A DNA stretch of 36,100 bases from Candidatus Saganbacteria bacterium (GCA_013202975.1 JABMQY010000025.1:1-36100), one strand, 5' to 3'. Positions 5,178-19,324 are shown, counted from the stretch's first letter. Notes: generated by a model from the letters alone, not told the origin. Numbers and translations: made by a program.

Positions 5178-5462
5178 TTATCTATCCCTGCATCTGGCCG
5201 CTGCCTTCAAAACCCACTTTTCTCCCTTTATTAGTGCAATCTTTTTGGTTCTAGTCCAGCCTTTAATTTGAATTTCCCTTTTTGTAGCAGCGCTTCTATT
5301 TTGGTGCTCTTCTGAATAAAGGAATTGGACTGGGGGATTTGATGAAGTATAGTGTCCTCCTTTTCCATCTTTGTGCTCTTTGAATCTTCTTTCCAAATTA
5401 GATGTAATTCCGGTGTAGAGAGCTCCATCCTTGCATTTGAGGATATAAACATGGTATGTCAT
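5178..5462 (-). CDS. Small GIY-YIG-domain nuclease (UPF0213/YhbQ-like)
   Basis: The 94 residues form a single GIY-YIG domain. The paired tyrosine motifs appear as VYIL (5-8) and YTGIT (17-21), followed by NLERRFKEH with the conserved Arg and His. The C-terminal REIQIKGWTRTKK signature is typical of the UPF0213/YhbQ-like group. The family cleaves DNA with a metal-dependent single-domain fold; members of this stand-alone group have been linked to repair-like or structure-specific cleavage, and many remain uncharacterised. It starts just downstream of a nested palindrome (5485-5559) that lies between it and the initiator tRNA gene. I see no clear Shine-Dalgarno site at the ATG. The last residues (AAARCRDR) look like the variable tail usual for this group. 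Confidence 0.9.
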   Translation of the reverse strand: MTYHVYILKCKDGALYTGITSNLERRFKEHKDGKGGHYTSSNPPVQFLYSEEHQNRSAATKREIQIKGWTRTKKIALIKGEKWVLKAAARCRDR

Positions 5463-5484
5463 ATTAGCTTGGTGGTTTCAACCT

Positions 5485-5559
5485 CGACTCACTCCGTTCG
5501 CTCGGTTTGGTTCGACAATGAGGGAGTCGAATGGTGAGCGAGCGCAGCGAGTCGAACCA
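5485..5559. repeat. Nested palindrome (REP-like) beside the tRNA and GIY-YIG gene
   Basis: Arms 5485-5503 and 5536-5554 pair over 19 positions with 16 Watson-Crick pairs, one G-U and two mismatches. The loop contains TTCGAC (5511-5516) and GTCGAA (5526-5531), which pair with each other. TGGTTCGAC (5508-5516) also pairs perfectly with GTCGAACCA (5551-5559), so alternative folds exist. The core words, such as GAGCGAGCGCAGCGAG, resemble dispersed palindromic repeats of other bacteria. No T-run follows, so it is not a standard terminator. Confidence 0.7.
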
Positions 5560-5633
5560 TAGCGGGGGTGGGATTCGAACCCACGACCTCAAGGTTATGA
5601 GCCTTGCGAGCTACCAGGCTGCTCCACCCCGCG
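5560..5633 (-). tRNA. Initiator tRNA-fMet (CAT anticodon)
   Basis: The 74-nt cloverleaf folds fully: acceptor CGCGGGG/CCCCGC, D stem GAGC/GCTC, anticodon stem CAAGG/CCTTG with loop CTCATAA, and T stem GTGGG/CCCAC with loop TTCGAAT. Two initiator hallmarks are visible: base 1 (C) cannot pair with base 72 (U), and the D stem has the purine-pyrimidine pair A11-U24. Two details are unusual. The three G-C pairs expected at the bottom of the anticodon stem are A-U, G-C, G-C, and base 72 is U rather than the common A. CCA is not encoded. A TATAAT (plus-strand 5646-5651) lies upstream and overlaps the plsY promoter on the other strand. Confidence 0.95.
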
Positions 5634-5647
5634 ATAATATATGCTAT

Positions 5648-12144: not shown

Positions 12145-13725
12145 TTATTCAAATTTTAATCTTTCTTTAAAATTAACATAGTGAATTTTATTATTCATTT
12201 TATCAAGACCTGGCTGAAAAAAGTCTGGAAAATTATCTCTCATGCCATAAGCTAGTCGGACAATTTGATCATATTCTATTCTAATGCTGCTCGGATTTCC
12301 AGATGCGTCCTTTGCTCCCTCAAGATAGACCCCATATCCAGGAGTCACAGGACCAGGGCTTGGTCCGTTCTCCACTCCAGCTGATACAGCCCCTCTAATA
12401 TCAATAGAATTTAAGTCCTCTTTATAAAAAAGCTTTAGCCCAACATAACCATTGGCATGGATAAGTCCTTCAACCTCAATACTTCCAAGTTCTGTTATAT
12501 TATTATTAAATTGCCCGGTAGTGATATTTTCGTTTGCAACAAGAGCAGGCATATACTCATTATTATTATTTGGATTAGAAATTATCCTGACTCTCGTTCG
12601 CGGAGAAACTGGAACTGGCCATTCAATACTTTGTTCTATAATAATATTTCCATTCACAAAAATTGAACCATATACAGTAACATCCCCAGAAATTTTCAGA
12701 TCTCCATTCTTAAAATACCTTATGGGTTGGGTCGGAGAACCAAGAACTACAGGTCCATCTCCAAACCGATAACCGCCTGCGGTCCCGTATGGTGCATTAA
12801 AACTTGTTAAAGTATCGTTCTTCAGGGTTTGCAAGGTAACAACATTATCTGCAATCTTTCTAAAATCCTCAATTTCAACCCTCATGGGAAACCACTGATC
12901 ATTTTGAAAAGCTACATTAAATATTGGTTGGCCACCCATAGTATCCGGGGAATTATTAAATAAGAGCCCCGTACCCCAAGATGTACTACAATTTCCACTT
13001 GAAATAAATCTAATTTCACTAGGGAGAGATTCCTTACCAGGATTAGTAGAAAGAACAACATTATTTGGAGGAGCAGCATAGTCATAGTTTTCAAAATAAG
13101 CGCTAGCAGTAGATCCAACATAAACATCTCCCTGGCCTGCGGAAACCGCATACTTTAACGTTGGACATAGATATCTTTTTACATGCTGTTCTATAGAAGA
13201 CTCCGAACCGGAAGCATATCCACCTGAAACGATTTTTGCCTCGGACCAAAGAAATTCACCCTTAAAATGGGGGTCATCGCCAATATTACCGTTAATAGGC
13301 CCTGAAAAAAGCGGCTTGACATTTGTGATATCTACTTGAAATGAGCCAATGCTATTATCCAATTGGTTTCTTATTTCTCTGGATATCCTATTATAATCCC
13401 AATTTCCTATAAAAAGAGAGCTCGGATTGTCGCCGGAATCATGACATGGGTAACCAAACGAATTATTATCTATTCTCATTGGTACTACTGTAGCACCAGG
13501 CGCTAAATTATTTATCATCCAATCGTAGTCATTTTTCAGCAGGCGATTTGCTGCATAATGGGCCCCTGCTTCTGCCATATAAAGGGCATTAGTATAATTG
13601 ACCTCTTTTGATGCAGAAATTAACTGGCCGGATAACAATTGGACCATGGTCATTCCAAGCATTAGAAAAATTATCATTACAAAGATACTGGCAATTAGCG
13701 AAAAACCTTTACTTTTAATTTTCAT
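12145..13725 (-). CDS. PilX/GspK-like minor pilin with large beta-rich domain (cassette B)
   Basis: The 526-residue protein starts with a type III signal-like segment (MKIKSKG, cleavage expected after Gly7) and a pilin helix FSLIASIFVMIIFLMLGMTM. Position +5 is Ala rather than Glu, as in GspK- and PilX-type tip subunits. AEAGAHYAANRLL after the helix is typical of PilX N-terminal domains. The long remainder carries stretches such as DLKISGDVTVYGSIFVNGNI, like the stacked beta-helix turns of polymer-forming (bactofilin-like) proteins, and 'NITELGSIEVEGLIHANGYV'. It is the last gene of cassette B, overlaps its neighbour by 4 bp and is followed after 14 bp by pilMN. It is a paralogue in layout of the 15781-16818 gene. 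Confidence 0.82.
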   Translation of the reverse strand: MKIKSKGFSLIASIFVMIIFLMLGMTMVQLLSGQLISASKEVNYTNALYMAEAGAHYAANRLLKNDYDWMINNLAPGATVVPMRIDNNSFGYPCHDSGDNPSSLFIGNWDYNRISREIRNQLDNSIGSFQVDITNVKPLFSGPINGNIGDDPHFKGEFLWSEAKIVSGGYASGSESSIEQHVKRYLCPTLKYAVSAGQGDVYVGSTASAYFENYDYAAPPNNVVLSTNPGKESLPSEIRFISSGNCSTSWGTGLLFNNSPDTMGGQPIFNVAFQNDQWFPMRVEIEDFRKIADNVVTLQTLKNDTLTSFNAPYGTAGGYRFGDGPVVLGSPTQPIRYFKNGDLKISGDVTVYGSIFVNGNIIIEQSIEWPVPVSPRTRVRIISNPNNNNEYMPALVANENITTGQFNNNITELGSIEVEGLIHANGYVGLKLFYKEDLNSIDIRGAVSAGVENGPSPGPVTPGYGVYLEGAKDASGNPSSIRIEYDQIVRLAYGMRDNFPDFFQPGLDKMNNKIHYVNFKERLKFE

Positions 13726-14420
13726 TGAATATCATTCCTCATTTTAACAACGGTAACAAGGGGAAAGGTCTTATCCACCTCTTCTACCGAAAACCCAACC
13801 TTTATCAACCTGCTCGAGCGAGGCGAGGGCCAGTTTGGATCAAGAAAAGTATCTCTAGGAGTAGGGGGTGCCAAATCTAGATCAATTTTAGTTATATTAC
13901 CATCCCCAAGATTTACCCCATAATATTCAAAACGGAAATCATCGGTAACAGTATTTGCCAAATCAAATTTTAGAACATCTATTCCCATTAAATTGATTAC
14001 ATTTCCAGTGTGCGGAGCTTTAAAATCATCGCCATAACGGGTATCAAAAGGGGCAGGTCTGGCGGCAAATTTGTCAAAAAATATCAGGTTCTTGGCAGGA
14101 GCCCCGAGTAGAACAAAACCGACCTTGTTTTGATCTATTGGATCAGCATCAGGGGGAATATTTATAGTAAAAGCAAATGATTTTTCTTCAACATAAAATT
14201 CTTGATCAAACTGTCTATTTAATGCTCTCATATTGCGAGTCTCTCTTATAATTTTAGTCATGGTAAGACGTGCTTTGGCCTGAGCCTTATAGCTGTCTCT
14301 GTAAAAGACCCAAATATCCAAACCTTTAACAATAAAAACGGTAATCAGACTACCAATTACCGTTATCAGTGTCATTACAATTACTAATTCAATAAGAGTA
14401 ACTCCATGTTTACGTTTCAT
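13722..14420 (-). CDS. PilW/GspJ-like minor pilin (cassette B)
   Basis: The 232-residue prepilin has the leader MKRKHG, predicted cleavage after Gly6 and a mature start of VTLIELVIVMTLITVIGSL with Glu at +5, followed by a hydrophobic helix. FIVKGLDIWVFYRDSYKAQAKARLTMTKIIRE after the helix is typical of PilW/GspJ. It corresponds position by position to the cassette A gene at 16815-17336 (FIIKGIDVWNLLRQ). The start overlaps the preceding gene by 4 bp. PilW-type proteins join the priming or tip complex of the pilus in the inner membrane. Confidence 0.85.
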   Translation of the reverse strand: MKRKHGVTLIELVIVMTLITVIGSLITVFIVKGLDIWVFYRDSYKAQAKARLTMTKIIRETRNMRALNRQFDQEFYVEEKSFAFTINIPPDADPIDQNKVGFVLLGAPAKNLIFFDKFAARPAPFDTRYGDDFKAPHTGNVINLMGIDVLKFDLANTVTDDFRFEYYGVNLGDGNITKIDLDLAPPTPRDTFLDPNWPSPRSSRLIKVGFSVEEVDKTFPLVTVVKMRNDIQ

Positions 14421-14965
14421 CTAAATAATATCCTTGGCTGAAGAACAGAAAAAAAGTTTTTTGAAAATTGGGGATTCCCGTCTGAATCGGTCTTAAACAC
14501 CTGTACAGTCAATAAACGAAAATCATATTCATTCCCCTCACCAGGCATAGACTTGACCCTCAAAATAGAAGAAGCATTAGGAAAAGCAGGAGGTGGGGCA
14601 TCTTCCATATAATAAATCCATGCCCTATATTTGTAATCCTGAAAATACGGAGTAGTACTCAGTGGATTGCCAGGATTAAAAAAAGACTCTCCCAAAGGAC
14701 TATTTCCCACAAACGGATCCATTTGAGTACCAGCAGCATATACAACTGGGTCTTCACAAAGGGCGGTAGCAAGAAATTCCTCGGTCTTACCCATCCCTAA
14801 AAATGAAGCAATAGTTATATCACGGCTGTTCTGGCTTTTGCCTGCAACCAAAGAGATCACATTTATCAAAGAATAAAAAGCAATGCCAATAATTACAACA
14901 CTGATTATTAACTCAACCAGCGTTACCCCTTTTATCCGTTTTTTATTATGGGGTCCAATCTTCAA
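14417..14965 (-). CDS. PilV/GspI-like minor pilin (cassette B)
   Basis: The 182-residue prepilin has a basic leader, predicted cleavage after Gly13 (KKRIKG) and a mature start of VTLVELIISVVIIGIAFYSLI with Glu at +5. AFYSLINVISLVAGKSQNSRDITIASFLGMGKTEEFLA matches the PilV/GspI pattern of a helix followed by an alpha-1C segment. The start overlaps the GspH-like gene by 20 bp, and its stop overlaps the PilW-like gene by 4 bp. It is equivalent to the 17326-17730 gene of cassette A but has a longer globular domain. Confidence 0.85.
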   Translation of the reverse strand: MKIGPHNKKRIKGVTLVELIISVVIIGIAFYSLINVISLVAGKSQNSRDITIASFLGMGKTEEFLATALCEDPVVYAAGTQMDPFVGNSPLGESFFNPGNPLSTTPYFQDYKYRAWIYYMEDAPPPAFPNASSILRVKSMPGEGNEYDFRLLTVQVFKTDSDGNPQFSKNFFSVLQPRILFR

Positions 14966-15497
14966 CTTTTACCCCCCCTGTATTGGGAGTTACAACAATC
15001 TGTTTTGTTGCGTCCCCTTTCCTGAAACGAATATAAAAATAATCATTTAAAGGTTCAACTAGTTCAAAATCAATGTGAGGAACACCCTCGTGATCAAATG
15101 CAAGGTCATAAGTGATAAACCAAGGTTCCCTTCCTATCCACACCCCAGTTACTCCCCTATAATCGTTAGCAAAATTTACCGGATTAATATGAGTAGGGTC
15201 AGAATATTCTGGATAAACCCCCGGTGAATCGCGATAGTTTAAATAATAAGAAACAAAATTATCAGAGCCGGGAATTTGATTAAATCTAAGTCCATGTACT
15301 TTTCCACTGCTAACCGCCAAAGATCGCATGTACCGTATATCACCCGCAATCCGCTCAGCCGCCAAATTGAGGGAGGTCTGGCCTTCTCCGCTATAACGCA
15401 CAAAAGCAACAGCCGCAAGAATCGCCATAATGACCATAACAATAACCAATTCTATCAACGTGAACGCACGCCGTGAATTAGTTTTATTTCTTTTCAT
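14946..15497 (-). CDS. GspH/FimT-like minor pilin, first gene of cassette B
   Basis: The frame is open to 15572, but the promoter decides the start. TTGACA and TAAAAT are spaced 17 bp apart and the expected transcription start falls on the ATG at 15497, giving a 183-residue prepilin. The leader is MKRNKTNSRRA, followed by FTLIELVIVMVIMAILAAVA with Glu at +5; the residue before the cleavage site is Ala rather than Gly, which is tolerated in some prepilins. The downstream LAAERIAGDIRYMRSLAVSSGKVHG block is typical of the GspH/FimT family. It heads the cassette B-pilMNOPQ operon. An ATG two codons upstream (15503) would lie just inside the predicted transcription start. Confidence 0.85.
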   Translation of the reverse strand: MKRNKTNSRRAFTLIELVIVMVIMAILAAVAFVRYSGEGQTSLNLAAERIAGDIRYMRSLAVSSGKVHGLRFNQIPGSDNFVSYYLNYRDSPGVYPEYSDPTHINPVNFANDYRGVTGVWIGREPWFITYDLAFDHEGVPHIDFELVEPLNDYFYIRFRKGDATKQIVVTPNTGGVKVEDWTP

Positions 15498-15504
15498 TTG
15501 CATT

Positions 15505-15533
15505 ATTTTAGAACTTAAATAAGGGGTTGTCAA
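15505..15533 (-). promoter_or_regulatory. Leaderless-type promoter of cassette B and pilMNOPQ
   Basis: On the minus strand a perfect -35 TTGACA (15528-15533), a 17-bp spacer and a -10 TAAAAT (15505-15510) are followed by seven bases and the ATG at 15497. The start site would be on or one base before the start codon. It lies next to foldback element 1. Confidence 0.75.
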
Positions 15534-15552: not shown

Positions 15553-15778
15553 TTCTTTAATCGCCAAGGCACTCAGATCTTATCGCTGGATTAAGGATAA
15601 TCGCAGGATCTCGCAGGATAAAACAATAGCAGATAAAACGCAGATCTACTCGGATTAAGCAGATATAATATCGGTGTTATCTGTGATAATCAGAGTTCTA
15701 TCAGCGATGTGGATTTATCGGCGAGATCCGTGAGTATCAAAATCTAGCGATAGGATCTGCGAAGCGGCGTTTAAAGAA
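15553..15778. repeat. Foldback element 1 (about 226 bp, inverted ends)
   Basis: The 13-bp ends TTCTTTAATCGCC (15553-15565) and GGCGTTTAAAGAA (15766-15778) are inverted repeats matching at 12 positions. The two halves also pair imperfectly over most of their length: CAGATCTTATCGCTGGAT on the left matches the complement of the right half, CAGATCCTATCGCTAGAT. Short GAT-containing words (CGCAGGAT, GCAGAT, CGGATT) recur every 8-16 bp. No long frame is present. It fills the gap between the cassette A stop (3 bp away) and the cassette B promoter. It shares its ends and layout with element 2. Confidence 0.8.
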
Positions 15779-15780
15779 TA

Positions 15781-16818
15781 CTATAAATTACGCCATCTCG
15801 TAATCGTGACACTAGCCCCTACCCCAACAAAAGGGGTTAGCAGAATTTTTGGATCATAAGTTAAAGATAAAAAATTAGCATTCACCATGCTTATACGTCC
15901 GCCGCTGACTATGCCGCCGTTAAAAACCATATCGTCATTATTATTCATTGTAATATTGTCGGAGGCATAAACTAATCCATTAATATATCCGCTTCCGGAT
16001 TGAGTTCCGTTGATGTGGCCGTTAGCCATAATAGCCGGATAACTTGCTTCGGCGCTGACATATAAATAATCGGCCTGGTTCATATTGACATTTCCCATAG
16101 TAATAATAGACCCGTTAACAATAACATCATCCTCGATATCAACATTTCCCTCGGCAAAGATAATACCGTTTACGGTCTGGTTATCCAACTCCAGATCTCC
16201 AGAATAATAATTGCCGGATGCCTGTGCCAGCGCGCGATACTGGTCCCAGTCTATTGGCGGAATACTAATACTCTCGTTTGAAGCAAGATCATGCTCACCG
16301 GTCATCTGAGAAACAATATCCGAGCCGGAGACTAAATCCCCGTCATTAATCGTACCGCTGCCATTATTTAAATTAATCCGATTGGCGGCATACATTGCAC
16401 CAAGTAAAGCCTCTTCATAATTCCTCTGAAGAGTAACCTCAACCTCCCGCCGGATCTCGGACAAGACATTGCCGCGGTTAAAATATCCGCTTGCCTCAAT
16501 GGTACAAATGGTCGGCTCATAACTTCGAATCACAGTATCAAATTCCCCGTCGCCCAGAGCTATATTTGAGTTGGTCTGGCCGTTGTTATCGCTCCAGTCA
16601 TAATCAACTAAGAGATCTTTCGCCAGCGCATACTCCGCCCCCCCCTCGGCAATATGGATAGACTTAATCCCGGAAAGGGTCAGGACATTGCCGATTGATT
16701 CGGATGAGATAAAAGCGGCAATGGTAATACCTATGGCCGAAAAAATTACAATTACATAAATTGTAACTATCAGCGCATAAGCCTTATTATTATTATCTTT
16801 TAGTTTTAGTCTCATCAT
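15781..16818 (-). CDS. PilX/GspK-like minor pilin with beta-helix-like domain (cassette A)
   Basis: The 345-residue protein has a basic leader and pilin helix (YALIVTIYVIVIFSAIGITIAAF) lacking Glu at +5. It is followed by HIAEGGAEYALAKDLLVDYDW, which parallels AEAGAHYAANRLLKNDYDW in the cassette B paralogue. The second half shows repeated short strands rich in Asn, Gly and Ile (GIIFAEGNVDIEDDVIVNGS, then ITMGNVNMNQ) that look like successive turns of a beta-helix of the polymer-forming type. It ends cassette A: the start overlaps the PilW-like gene by 4 bp, and foldback element 1 begins 3 bp after the TAG stop. Confidence 0.8.
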   Translation of the reverse strand: MMRLKLKDNNNKAYALIVTIYVIVIFSAIGITIAAFISSESIGNVLTLSGIKSIHIAEGGAEYALAKDLLVDYDWSDNNGQTNSNIALGDGEFDTVIRSYEPTICTIEASGYFNRGNVLSEIRREVEVTLQRNYEEALLGAMYAANRINLNNGSGTINDGDLVSGSDIVSQMTGEHDLASNESISIPPIDWDQYRALAQASGNYYSGDLELDNQTVNGIIFAEGNVDIEDDVIVNGSIITMGNVNMNQADYLYVSAEASYPAIMANGHINGTQSGSGYINGLVYASDNITMNNNDDMVFNGGIVSGGRISMVNANFLSLTYDPKILLTPFVGVGASVTITRWRNL

Positions 16819-17336
16819 ATAACCCTTAAACGGACGGCCGACTGGATATTAATAATCTCCGCACCTCTTTCAAATTTAATTTCCACCCGTATGGCCCTGA
16901 TATCATCCCTGACTGCCGTCGGATTCCCAAAAACATCAAGATAAGTAAACAGTAAACCGTTGGCGGTGAGGTTATCGCTTAATGAAACACCGTTGTGAAA
17001 CAGATTTCCGCCAACCGCATCAAAGGTATAATTATGGTTTTCGCCGTCAATATTATTAAACTCAAAAATAATTGGGTCAAAGACCAGGATATTATTGGTA
17101 TCGGGAATTTTTCTAACCTCGTCCAGCACCTGAACTATCACCCGCCGCGATTCGGCCTGCAGGGCATTGCGCTGCCTAAGTAAGTTCCAGACATCAATTC
17201 CCTTTATTATAAAAATTCCCAGGCCATAGACAATTATTACCAGCAAAACCATCCCGATAATTATTTCAATTAATGTATACCCTTCGACAGTCCGCTTACG
17301 CGGACTTCTCAGGGCAAGCCCTCTTCTATTGCCCAT
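16815..17336 (-). CDS. PilW/GspJ-like minor pilin (cassette A)
   Basis: The 173-residue prepilin has an unusually long basic leader of 19 residues ending EG, then YTLIEIIIGMVLLVIIVYGL with Glu at +5. The FIIKGIDVWNLLRQRNALQAESRRVIVQVLDEVRK segment after the helix is the PilW/GspJ pattern. The start overlaps the PilV-like gene by 11 bp and the stop overlaps the PilX-like gene by 4 bp. The leader may be shorter in reality, but no better ATG lies before the cleavage site. Confidence 0.83.
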   Translation of the reverse strand: MGNRRGLALRSPRKRTVEGYTLIEIIIGMVLLVIIVYGLGIFIIKGIDVWNLLRQRNALQAESRRVIVQVLDEVRKIPDTNNILVFDPIIFEFNNIDGENHNYTFDAVGGNLFHNGVSLSDNLTANGLLFTYLDVFGNPTAVRDDIRAIRVEIKFERGAEIINIQSAVRLRVI

Positions 17337-17730
17337 ATCTCACCTTTAGCGTAGTTAATTTGACCGGAATATTCATGGCCTCATTGGAGACCAGAACCTC
17401 TATCCTCTTATAATCGGTGGGAGGAGCGACCGCCTTACCGGCTAAATTATCAAGATCAACATACTCAACATCTACCCGGTAGGTATAATTAGAAAAATCT
17501 CCGCCAAAGCTTACGGTCTCCTGGGTTACATAATCAGTGCTCCAATCCTTATCTTCCATTGTAAATTCTTCCATGGCCTGCTCGGCTAAAAAAGAACCGG
17601 TCAGCACCTGCTGGCTGGCGACATTTTTAAAAGCGGTGTTGCTCAAAAAAGACATCAGGGTATAGAAGGCCAGGGCAATCAGGGATATGCTTATCACAAT
17701 TTCTATAAGAGTGAAACCGTTTCTCTTCAT
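17326..17730 (-). CDS. PilV/GspI-like minor pilin (cassette A)
   Basis: The 134-residue prepilin has the short leader MKRNG and a mature helix FTLIEIVISISLIALAFYTL with Glu at +5. FLAEQAMEEFTMEDKDW after the helix is the typical GspI/PilV segment (EQAMEE). The start overlaps the GspH-like gene by 4 bp. It corresponds to the 14417-14965 gene of cassette B. Confidence 0.87.
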   Translation of the reverse strand: MKRNGFTLIEIVISISLIALAFYTLMSFLSNTAFKNVASQQVLTGSFLAEQAMEEFTMEDKDWSTDYVTQETVSFGGDFSNYTYRVDVEYVDLDNLAGKAVAPPTDYKRIEVLVSNEAMNIPVKLTTLKVRYGQ

Positions 17731-18311
17731 GGATTTACAACCTCTATCTGCCCGCTATTCGGGTAGATATAAATATATTTATAAATTGGGGAAGAATTGC
17801 CGCATCCCTCCGGGCTATAACTAACCTTGACCCTGGTTTCTTCCTCTTTAGTATCCCCATAGAAATGACAGGGTATCCCTTTTGAATTAAACAAAAGATA
17901 ATTGGTAGAGACCCAAAAAAACCAGACCTTATACTGCACATCTGCAATTGCGAGATTCTTGTATATATCGCCGACATATATTTTATAAGGGGTTCCCAGG
18001 TTGGCCGGATTATCGTCCAGCGGATCAAAAAAAAGTCCCGACCCCAGCCCGTTATAAACATAATAGTAATTTGAATCAGACAACCAGTCGGAGCGCTCGC
18101 GAAACCTGACCCCGTACCAGTCCTTTTTGTTCATTGCCAGGCTCTGGGCGTAACGGATATCAGAAGCTACCCGCTGGACGCCAACATCAAGATAGGTCCC
18201 GGTTGCAGAGTTTAGCGAAACAAATACCGTGGCAGAAAGAATCGAAACCAAAACCACAACAAGTATAACTTCTATCAGCGTAAAACCGCGCAACGCAAAG
18301 GCTGTCTTCAT
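17727..18311 (-). CDS. GspH/FimT-like minor pilin, first gene of cassette A
   Basis: The 194-residue prepilin has the leader MKTAFALRG, cleavage after Gly9 and a mature helix FTLIEVILVVVLVSILSATV with Glu at +5. VGVQRVASDIRYAQSLAMNKKDWYGVRF is the GspH/FimT signature and parallels LAAERIAGDIRYMRSLAVSSGK in cassette B. Four cysteine or aromatic-rich positions near the end (GIPCHFYG, PEGCGN) suggest a possible disulphide. It starts a transcription unit with a near-consensus promoter and a leader of zero to two bases. Confidence 0.87.
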   Translation of the reverse strand: MKTAFALRGFTLIEVILVVVLVSILSATVFVSLNSATGTYLDVGVQRVASDIRYAQSLAMNKKDWYGVRFRERSDWLSDSNYYYVYNGLGSGLFFDPLDDNPANLGTPYKIYVGDIYKNLAIADVQYKVWFFWVSTNYLLFNSKGIPCHFYGDTKEEETRVKVSYSPEGCGNSSPIYKYIYIYPNSGQIEVVNP

Positions 18312-18319
18312 TTGTGAAT

Positions 18320-18348
18320 ATTCTAGGTTTTATAGAACGATTTGTCAA
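18320..18348 (-). promoter_or_regulatory. Near-leaderless promoter of pilin cassette A
   Basis: On the minus strand TTGACA (18343-18348), a 17-bp spacer and TAGAAT (18320-18325) are followed by eight bases and the ATG at 18311. The -35 box lies only five bases from the terminal repeat of foldback element 2, the same kind of arrangement as at cassette B. Confidence 0.75.
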
Positions 18349-18353
18349 TATGA

Positions 18354-18591
18354 TTCTTTAATCCCCCGGCCCCTGATTTTATCCCGGATAGTGATCTTCC
18401 CTGATCTCCCGGATAGGGGAATCCCAAATTGTTACCCGGATTGTCCCTGATTTCCCGGATATTTTTATCTAATTTAATATTTTCTATCAGGGAATTCTGT
18501 GGGATCAGGGAAAAATCTGAGGCTTTTAATATCCGGGAGATCCTGGGACAATCAAAATCAGGGATAAGATCTGGGTTCTGGGATTAAAGAA
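18354..18591. repeat. Foldback element 2 (about 238 bp, inverted ends)
   Basis: Ends TTCTTTAATCCC (18354-18365) and GGGATTAAAGAA (18580-18591) are perfect 12-bp inverted repeats. The interior is built from recurrent words such as CCCGGATA, CCCTGATT and ATCCC on the left and their complements (TCAGGGA, ATCCGGGAG) on the right, so the whole element folds back imperfectly. It shares the end TTCTTTAATC and the spacing of GAT words with element 1, although the interiors differ in sequence. Its right end supplies the stop codon of the GT2 gene at 18584. It has no long frame of its own; a 73-codon frame over it shows no protein-like features. Confidence 0.8.
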
Positions 18592-19324
18592 TATACTTTG
18601 ATTTGTTAACAACATACTTCAAACAAACAGCTAAAGTCTGAAAACCATAGATGGTACTGTTAACAAAGTTAACTGACGAGGCTTCGGAAAAATAGCGGCA
18701 GGGAACCGGGATTTCGCCCGCGCGAAACTTTGCAGCCGCCACCTCGGCCAGGACTTCGGTATCAAAAACAAAGTTATCGGAATTTTTTTGGTATGGAATT
18801 TTTTCTAAGACCTCCCTGCTATAAGCGCGCATGCCGGTATGGTATTCTGACAGTTTTAAACGCAGGGTAAGATTTTCGCATAATGTTAAAAAACGGTTCG
18901 ATATAAATTTATAGATCGGCATACCGCCGGCCAGGGTCCCCAGCCGGCCGCCCAGTACCCTGGAACCGAGCATTACATCTTTTTCCCCTTTTAGAATCGG
19001 AGCGATTAATTGGGGAATTTTTGTCGCATCGTACTGCCAGTCCGGATGGATCATAACAACCACATCGGCGCCATCCTTTAAGGCTTCGTCGTATAACATT
19101 TTTTGGTTGCCGCCGTAGCCGAGGTTAAGGGGGGTTTTGAGAACTTTAATTCCGAGTGATTTTGCAATTTCAATAGTATTATCCTTTGAACAGTCATCAC
19201 CCAAAATAATTCCTGAAATAATATCTTTGGGAATATCTTCAAAGGTCCGCTTTAGCGTCTTCTCCGCGTTGTAGGCGGGCATTATGATTATGGTTTTTTT
19301 AGTTTTTGGCAGCATCTTATCCAT
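18584..19324 (-). CDS. GT2-family glycosyltransferase (polyprenyl-phosphate type)
   Basis: This is a 246-residue cytoplasmic enzyme without membrane helices. Motifs in order are IIIMPAYNAEKTL (12-24), GDDCSKDNT (42-50), NLGYGGNQ (67-74) and HPDWQY (93-98), the last being the DxD-equivalent of the subgroup related to dolichyl-phosphate mannose/glucose synthases. GSRVLGG and YHTGMRAYSREVL are further family landmarks. It probably moves a sugar from a nucleotide donor to a lipid phosphate, giving the donor used by membrane GT-C enzymes such as those nearby. The start shares one base with the upstream stop (TAATG). MLPKTKK at codon 4 is an alternative start. The last codon and stop lie in foldback element 2. 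Confidence 0.9.
   Translation of the reverse strand: MDKMLPKTKKTIIIMPAYNAEKTLKRTFEDIPKDIISGIILGDDCSKDNTIEIAKSLGIKVLKTPLNLGYGGNQKMLYDEALKDGADVVVMIHPDWQYDATKIPQLIAPILKGEKDVMLGSRVLGGRLGTLAGGMPIYKFISNRFLTLCENLTLRLKLSEYHTGMRAYSREVLEKIPYQKNSDNFVFDTEVLAEVAAAKFRAGEIPVPCRYFSEASSVNFVNSTIYGFQTLAVCLKYVVNKSKYIL

Follow-up and report, generated by a model that had tools for sequence, protein, structure and literature searches.

What are the two foldback elements that bracket a cassette of minor-pilin-like genes in Candidatus Saganbacteria, and did they carry the cassette with them? The window that we analysed is a stretch of 36,100 nucleotides that makes up the whole of contig 9 of 139 in the genome assembly. 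An earlier note on this DNA had read the two elements as copies flanking cargo, and had suggested that an exchange between them could have produced the second pilin cassette nearby. Our analysis points to a different origin, in a dispersed family of gene-less elements that is probably related to foldbacks around small nuclease-like genes.

Two elements of a dispersed foldback family

The relevant features of the window are as follows:

12145..15503, minus strand: minor-pilin-like cassette B, context outside the elements (ORFs, N_methyl and PilX_N)
15505..15533, minus strand: promoter of cassette B, TTGACA-17-TAAAAT, 11/12 matches, 19 bp from element A
15553..15778, no strand: foldback element A, CGC-word subfamily, 226 bp, ORF-less, 173.9 bits with model R1
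15553..15564, plus strand: left end of A, TTCTTTAATCGC, from the sequence and an 11-copy alignment
15767..15778, plus strand: right end of A, GCGTTTAAAGAA, one mismatch against the complement of the left end
15781..18311, minus strand: minor-pilin-like cassette A, context outside the elements (ORFs, N_methyl motifs)
18320..18348, minus strand: promoter of cassette A, TTGACA-17-TAGAAT, 11/12 matches, 5 bp from element B
18354..18591, no strand: foldback element B, CCC-word subfamily, 238 bp, ORF-less, 235 bits with model R1
18354..18365, plus strand: left end of B, TTCTTTAATCCC, 13-bp perfect terminal inverted repeat
18580..18591, plus strand: right end of B, GGGATTAAAGAA, 13-bp perfect terminal inverted repeat
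18584..18586, minus strand: stop codon TAA of the glycosyltransferase gene 18584-19324, inside the end of element B

The coordinates and shared inverted ends given by the earlier note are correct, with the one mismatch at the right end of A, and both elements do lie directly upstream of TTGACA promoters. Both also fold back over their full length, as had been claimed, with DNA folding energies of -52 kcal/mol for A (z -8.7) and -53 kcal/mol for B (z -6.7) that no shuffled sequence equals. The last gene of cassette A ends 2 nt from element A, and the glycosyltransferase gene (Pfam Glycos_transf_2) runs into element B (a gap of -8).

A search of the 2.2-Mb genome with a covariance model built from eleven copies (R1) gave 12 full-length copies, together with one that is degenerate. 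The full-length copies, A and B among them, sit on eleven contigs at unrelated loci, and each is 220-248 bp long and without coding capacity, so that the further copies that had been named as support for mobility do exist. The genome contains the end motif TTCTTTAATC 48 times, and this motif is invariant at the ends of the 11 aligned copies, apart from one change in some of them. Exact inverted pairs TTCTTTAATC...GATTAAAGAA occur at 7 places, spanning 220-238 bp, while a reversed control pattern at the same spacing occurs at none, which places the pairing of ends in this genome beyond chance. In the GTDB genome collection, the same pattern gave 55 single matches, none of which folds (interior z never below -2.6, compared to about -8.5 for the window copies), and the same ends in other searched genomes are chance occurrences. 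It is the interior of the window elements that R1 detects across the class. A search of Rfam gave no family, in agreement with the statement that no named family has these ends. Two copies have unusual structures: one (L018:1501-1748, at G000:C57:30798-31045) holds an extra perfect palindrome, GGTATGAACCATACGGTTCATACC, in its left arm, forming a hairpin nested in the foldback, and a short degenerate copy (G000:C136:21461-21589, L196; 129 bp) has one TTTAAAGAA end followed immediately by another.

The copies fall into two subfamilies, named after their CCC and CGC words, with A grouping with the copies on C57 and C111 and B grouping with the CCC-type copies. Identity is 74-87% within the CCC-word subfamily and 79-84% within the CGC-word subfamily, but 58-65% between them, and A and B are 59% identical over their whole length. 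The earlier note had described interiors that share the spacing of GAT words but not the sequence; the common word skeleton stands, while the alignment of A and B from end to end shows that the interiors are not unrelated. The two window elements hold 17 and 19 CxC..(G/A)AT words, compared to about 1.6 in shuffled sequences, and these are oriented, with CxC..GAT on the left arm and its complement on the right arm. Stem pairs have been preserved through changes on both sides at 12 pairs (28 cells, compared to 9.8 in shuffles), partly since the middle CxC base and the base paired with it change in step. The differences between left and right arms are identical across all copies, which indicates that the copies share one ancestor and were not remade through arm copying. 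This bears on the suggestion that each element evolves by internal copying while keeping its ends: the arms are not re-copied each time, but nearly all words do differ together between the subfamilies, as that suggestion would have it.

GxxExxY genes between arms of the same kind

The style of the arm words pointed, as a lead only, to GxxExxY genes (TIGR04256 / Pfam PDDEXK_3, PF13366). The only GxxExxY gene found in this genome is interrupted by a stop and sits at the edge of a contig, and it is followed by ATCCGTG words. No intact GxxExxY gene, and no autonomous copy with TTCTTTAATC ends, was found in this genome, whose assembly is about 91% complete. In a genome of the same order (G003), the GxxExxY gene L070 lies between arms that can be aligned with the window elements, with a weak match to R1 (E 0.002). 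Foldbacks homologous to R1 were found in G054, G059, G061, G065, G066, G057, and G003. Within G054, which belongs to the same class, R1 matches ten places, one of them directly beside the GxxExxY gene L086 (E 4e-15), and weaker matches lie on both sides of another GxxExxY gene, L078.

Inverted word-array arms were found at 27 of 41 GxxExxY loci, in a sample that combines this phylum with named genomes from other groups, while 14 of the 41 are without clear arms. Among 340 control genes and among 1640 mismatched pairs, the proportion reaching the same threshold was 1.8% in each case. In one GxxExxY clade most arm words end in AT, and in another most end in AG; mapping these endings on the protein tree required 3 changes, compared to 8.7 when shuffled (0 of 500 shuffles were as low). 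Two genomes, G062 and G068, each hold both kinds of words, each kind in its own clade, and this pattern is therefore not due to genomic base composition. The window elements use GAT words, like L070 and its AT clade. On this evidence, we regard it as likely that the window elements are relatives of a broader class in which a small GxxExxY gene sits between inverted arms made of arrays of degenerate short words.

For insight into the GxxExxY protein itself we used an AlphaFold2 model of L070, in which confidence is high (mean pLDDT 91). The structures that it resembles most are those of the Cas4 protein SSO0001, LHK-Exo, and lambda exonuclease, at modest TM-scores (0.45-0.54). GxxExxY is predicted to be a nuclease of the Cas4/lambda-exonuclease type. 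Several residues are invariant or nearly so (E30, D69, E79-x-K81, and Q93-xxx-Y97), which we take to fit the active-site layout of this nuclease group.

Insertions with GxxExxY genes can be compared between close relatives in Chryseobacterium, where two types are scattered among sister species in the sufB-sufC spacer; for example, L200 has a GxxExxY insertion and its sister L199, at about 5% divergence, has none. Across about 40 Chryseobacterium species (L182, L197-L237), this spacer is empty or contains short leaders, a GNAT-like gene, or one GxxExxY type or the other, and these contents are scattered over the tree as in a hot spot of gain and loss. As an empty-site test, the spacer yielded no clean empty site and no readable duplication, because the leader was replaced together with the element. 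We dropped the idea that the left arm of type I is an inverted copy of the native leader, as comparison and the tree indicate that the leader may itself be an old arm.

GxxExxY genes are not the only ones with such arms. Inverted word arms were found at 11 of 27 four-helix-bundle genes (TIGR02436), compared to 0.9% of mismatched pairs, and the class is therefore wider and its arms are not tied to one protein. Genes of both kinds, GxxExxY and four-helix-bundle, turned up in many of the searched genomes. The TIGR02436 family occurs in 23S rRNA intervening sequences (PMC4990558). Six of the four-helix-bundle genes (L277, L278, L282, L284, L298, and L302) have inverted word arrays on their two sides, each with words of its own, such as GTCAGTA, GTAATGA, GTGATGG, ATCAGG, and TTAGTAG. 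The sister genus G008 has 12 full or partial TIGR02436 matches at or above the cut-off, and the window's genome has none. In the window, at 5178-5634, a gene for a 94-aa GIY-YIG protein adjoins tRNA-Met, with a palindrome, GTTCGA...TCGAACCA, between the two at about 5508-5560; no arms were found at this gene, which we had considered as a further arm-bearing gene.

The occurrence of arms at two unrelated protein families would also fit a reading in which the foldbacks are independent of GxxExxY, their arms being a general by-product, in intergenic DNA, of a host process or some other one, such as repair-driven inverted duplication, and small genes simply coming to settle in them. The 12 copies in a genome where no intact GxxExxY gene was found are consistent with this, as is the resemblance of one arm of a Chryseobacterium insertion to the native leader. 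We nevertheless consider this reading rather unlikely, given that word endings track the GxxExxY clade even within one genome and that arms of this kind occur at so few control genes.

Placement behind genes and possible movement

The copies are tightly placed behind genes: of the 11 that could be tested, 9 are no more than 8 nt away from a stop codon, where the null mean is 2.8 to 4.2 (P about 1e-4). In three of these nine copies the stop codon is supplied by the element itself, which reads ATT CTT TAA. One example is purC, where the C-terminus of the protein is GKEIL here and GKDVL in the orthologue of G001, ending at the same residue position; in G001, ispG follows directly after purC without an element between them. 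Elsewhere in the class, too, most homologous copies have a gene 3' end as neighbour.

Such placement, together with the strong fold and the pairs kept through changes on both sides, is what would be seen if the elements were not mobile at all but were functional RNA structures at transcript 3' ends, acting as a terminator, an RNase III site, or an mRNA-stabilising stem. However, no intrinsic terminator (a GC-rich stem followed by a T run) was predicted in element A or B. No fixed orientation relative to the gene was found among the copies, and G-U pairs (57) are no commoner than A-C pairs (53) in the stems when read along the direction of the upstream gene, leaving no signature of an RNA strand; an RNA role is thus unsupported. 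It would also leave the dispersed homologous copies and the link to GxxExxY unexplained, and we consider this explanation improbable.

As for movement, the direct repeats in the flanks of the copies are no better than those of mismatched flanks, which bears out the remark that direct target duplications are not visible. A clear target duplication was found at only one GxxExxY locus, L083 in G008. At this locus a GxxExxY insertion lies upstream of an NtrC-type gene, and its flanks form a 31-bp near-duplication with 4 mismatches, within which lies a sigma-54-like promoter, GGCGGCATAATTGCTGGG. In the window's genome, the homologue of this NtrC gene is also located behind the broken GxxExxY gene (L051). 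R1 gave no matches in the sister genus G008. Taking together the dispersal of the copies, their absence from G008, and the scattered insertions in Chryseobacterium, we favour movement or rapid gain and loss.

If the elements do move, they could be REP/BIME-like repeats whose movement depends on a Y1 (RAYT/IS200-type) transposase, as they are palindromic, extragenic, and near gene ends, and one Y1_Tnp gene is present in the genome. We examined this transposase as a partner and rejected it, since no Y1 gene flanked by TTCTTTAATC arms was found and the only one present has unrelated flanks carrying an unrelated hairpin. The elements also measure 220-248 bp rather than 20-40 bp and have long inverted arms, which makes this origin very improbable.

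The reading of the earlier note, a composite element with cassette A as its cargo, draws on the two copies that flank this cassette in the same orientation, but they come from different subfamilies, ten other copies are solitary, there is no outer duplication, and the cassettes have diverged so far that we can practically dismiss it. The proteins of cassettes A and B are 31-40% identical over partial stretches, and a direct comparison of the cassettes showed no DNA similarity, which means that the second cassette did not arise through a recent unequal exchange between copies. The cassettes are ancient paralogues.

A proposed route of spread and known systems

The explanation that we consider probable is that the window elements are ORF-less, MITE-like derivatives of a GxxExxY foldback element that have become lodged at gene 3' ends. 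In this scheme, the arms would fold when single-stranded or extruded, and a GxxExxY nuclease that knows the word dialect would bind the folded or single-stranded arms and cut or trim them. Repair or strand transfer would then put a copy at another site, and ORF-less copies could spread in trans by using the enzyme of another copy. Gene 3' ends would be either the preferred landing place or a place that tolerates insertion. The step in which the nuclease acts on the word-bearing arms is a proposal that we think less likely than not. More broadly, we tentatively suggest that there may be a widespread, unnamed class of mobile foldbacks in which arms made of arrays of a short degenerate word co-evolve with a cognate small protein (the GxxExxY nuclease here, a four-helix-bundle protein in a sister class) and ORF-less derivatives spread in trans to gene 3' ends; this is possible, though we would lean somewhat against it.

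If GxxExxY and four-helix-bundle proteins are the protein part of foldbacks with matched word arrays, these two catalogued orphan families would gain a testable function, rRNA intervening sequences would have possible relatives in the chromosome, and there would be a source for some of the palindromes that lie behind bacterial genes without an explanation. The correspondence between word dialect and nuclease clade would offer a direct handle on recognition. In a search of open-access literature, we found no paper that ties GxxExxY, PF13366, or TIGR04256 to foldback elements; what further searches there turned up were papers on MITEs and REP elements and the one on rRNA intervening sequences. 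There is a substantial chance that the class behind the window elements is new, and this novelty is provisional.

Several known systems share features with these elements. REP/BIME repeats with their RAYT transposases (PMC3733652) are likewise palindromic extragenic repeats near gene 3' ends, but the window elements are ten times longer and show no link to the Y1 transposase of the genome. The intervening sequences of 23S rRNA (PMC4990558) are foldbacks with inverted ends around a small S23/four-helix-bundle ORF, of a family that has word arms at sites in the chromosome as well, whereas the window elements are ORF-less and lie between protein genes, in a genome without TIGR02436. The GxxExxY family is known only as a family of proteins; its genes are found inside or beside homologues of the window elements, while the window copies carry no gene. 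Bacterial MITEs such as Correia, RUP, and similar elements are short, gene-less, dispersed, and intergenic, and have terminal inverted repeats, and the window elements are like them in all of these respects. In contrast to MITEs, they have no target duplication and no parent transposase, they are complementary over their whole length with arms made of word arrays, and their apparent partner is a Cas4-like nuclease rather than a DDE transposase.
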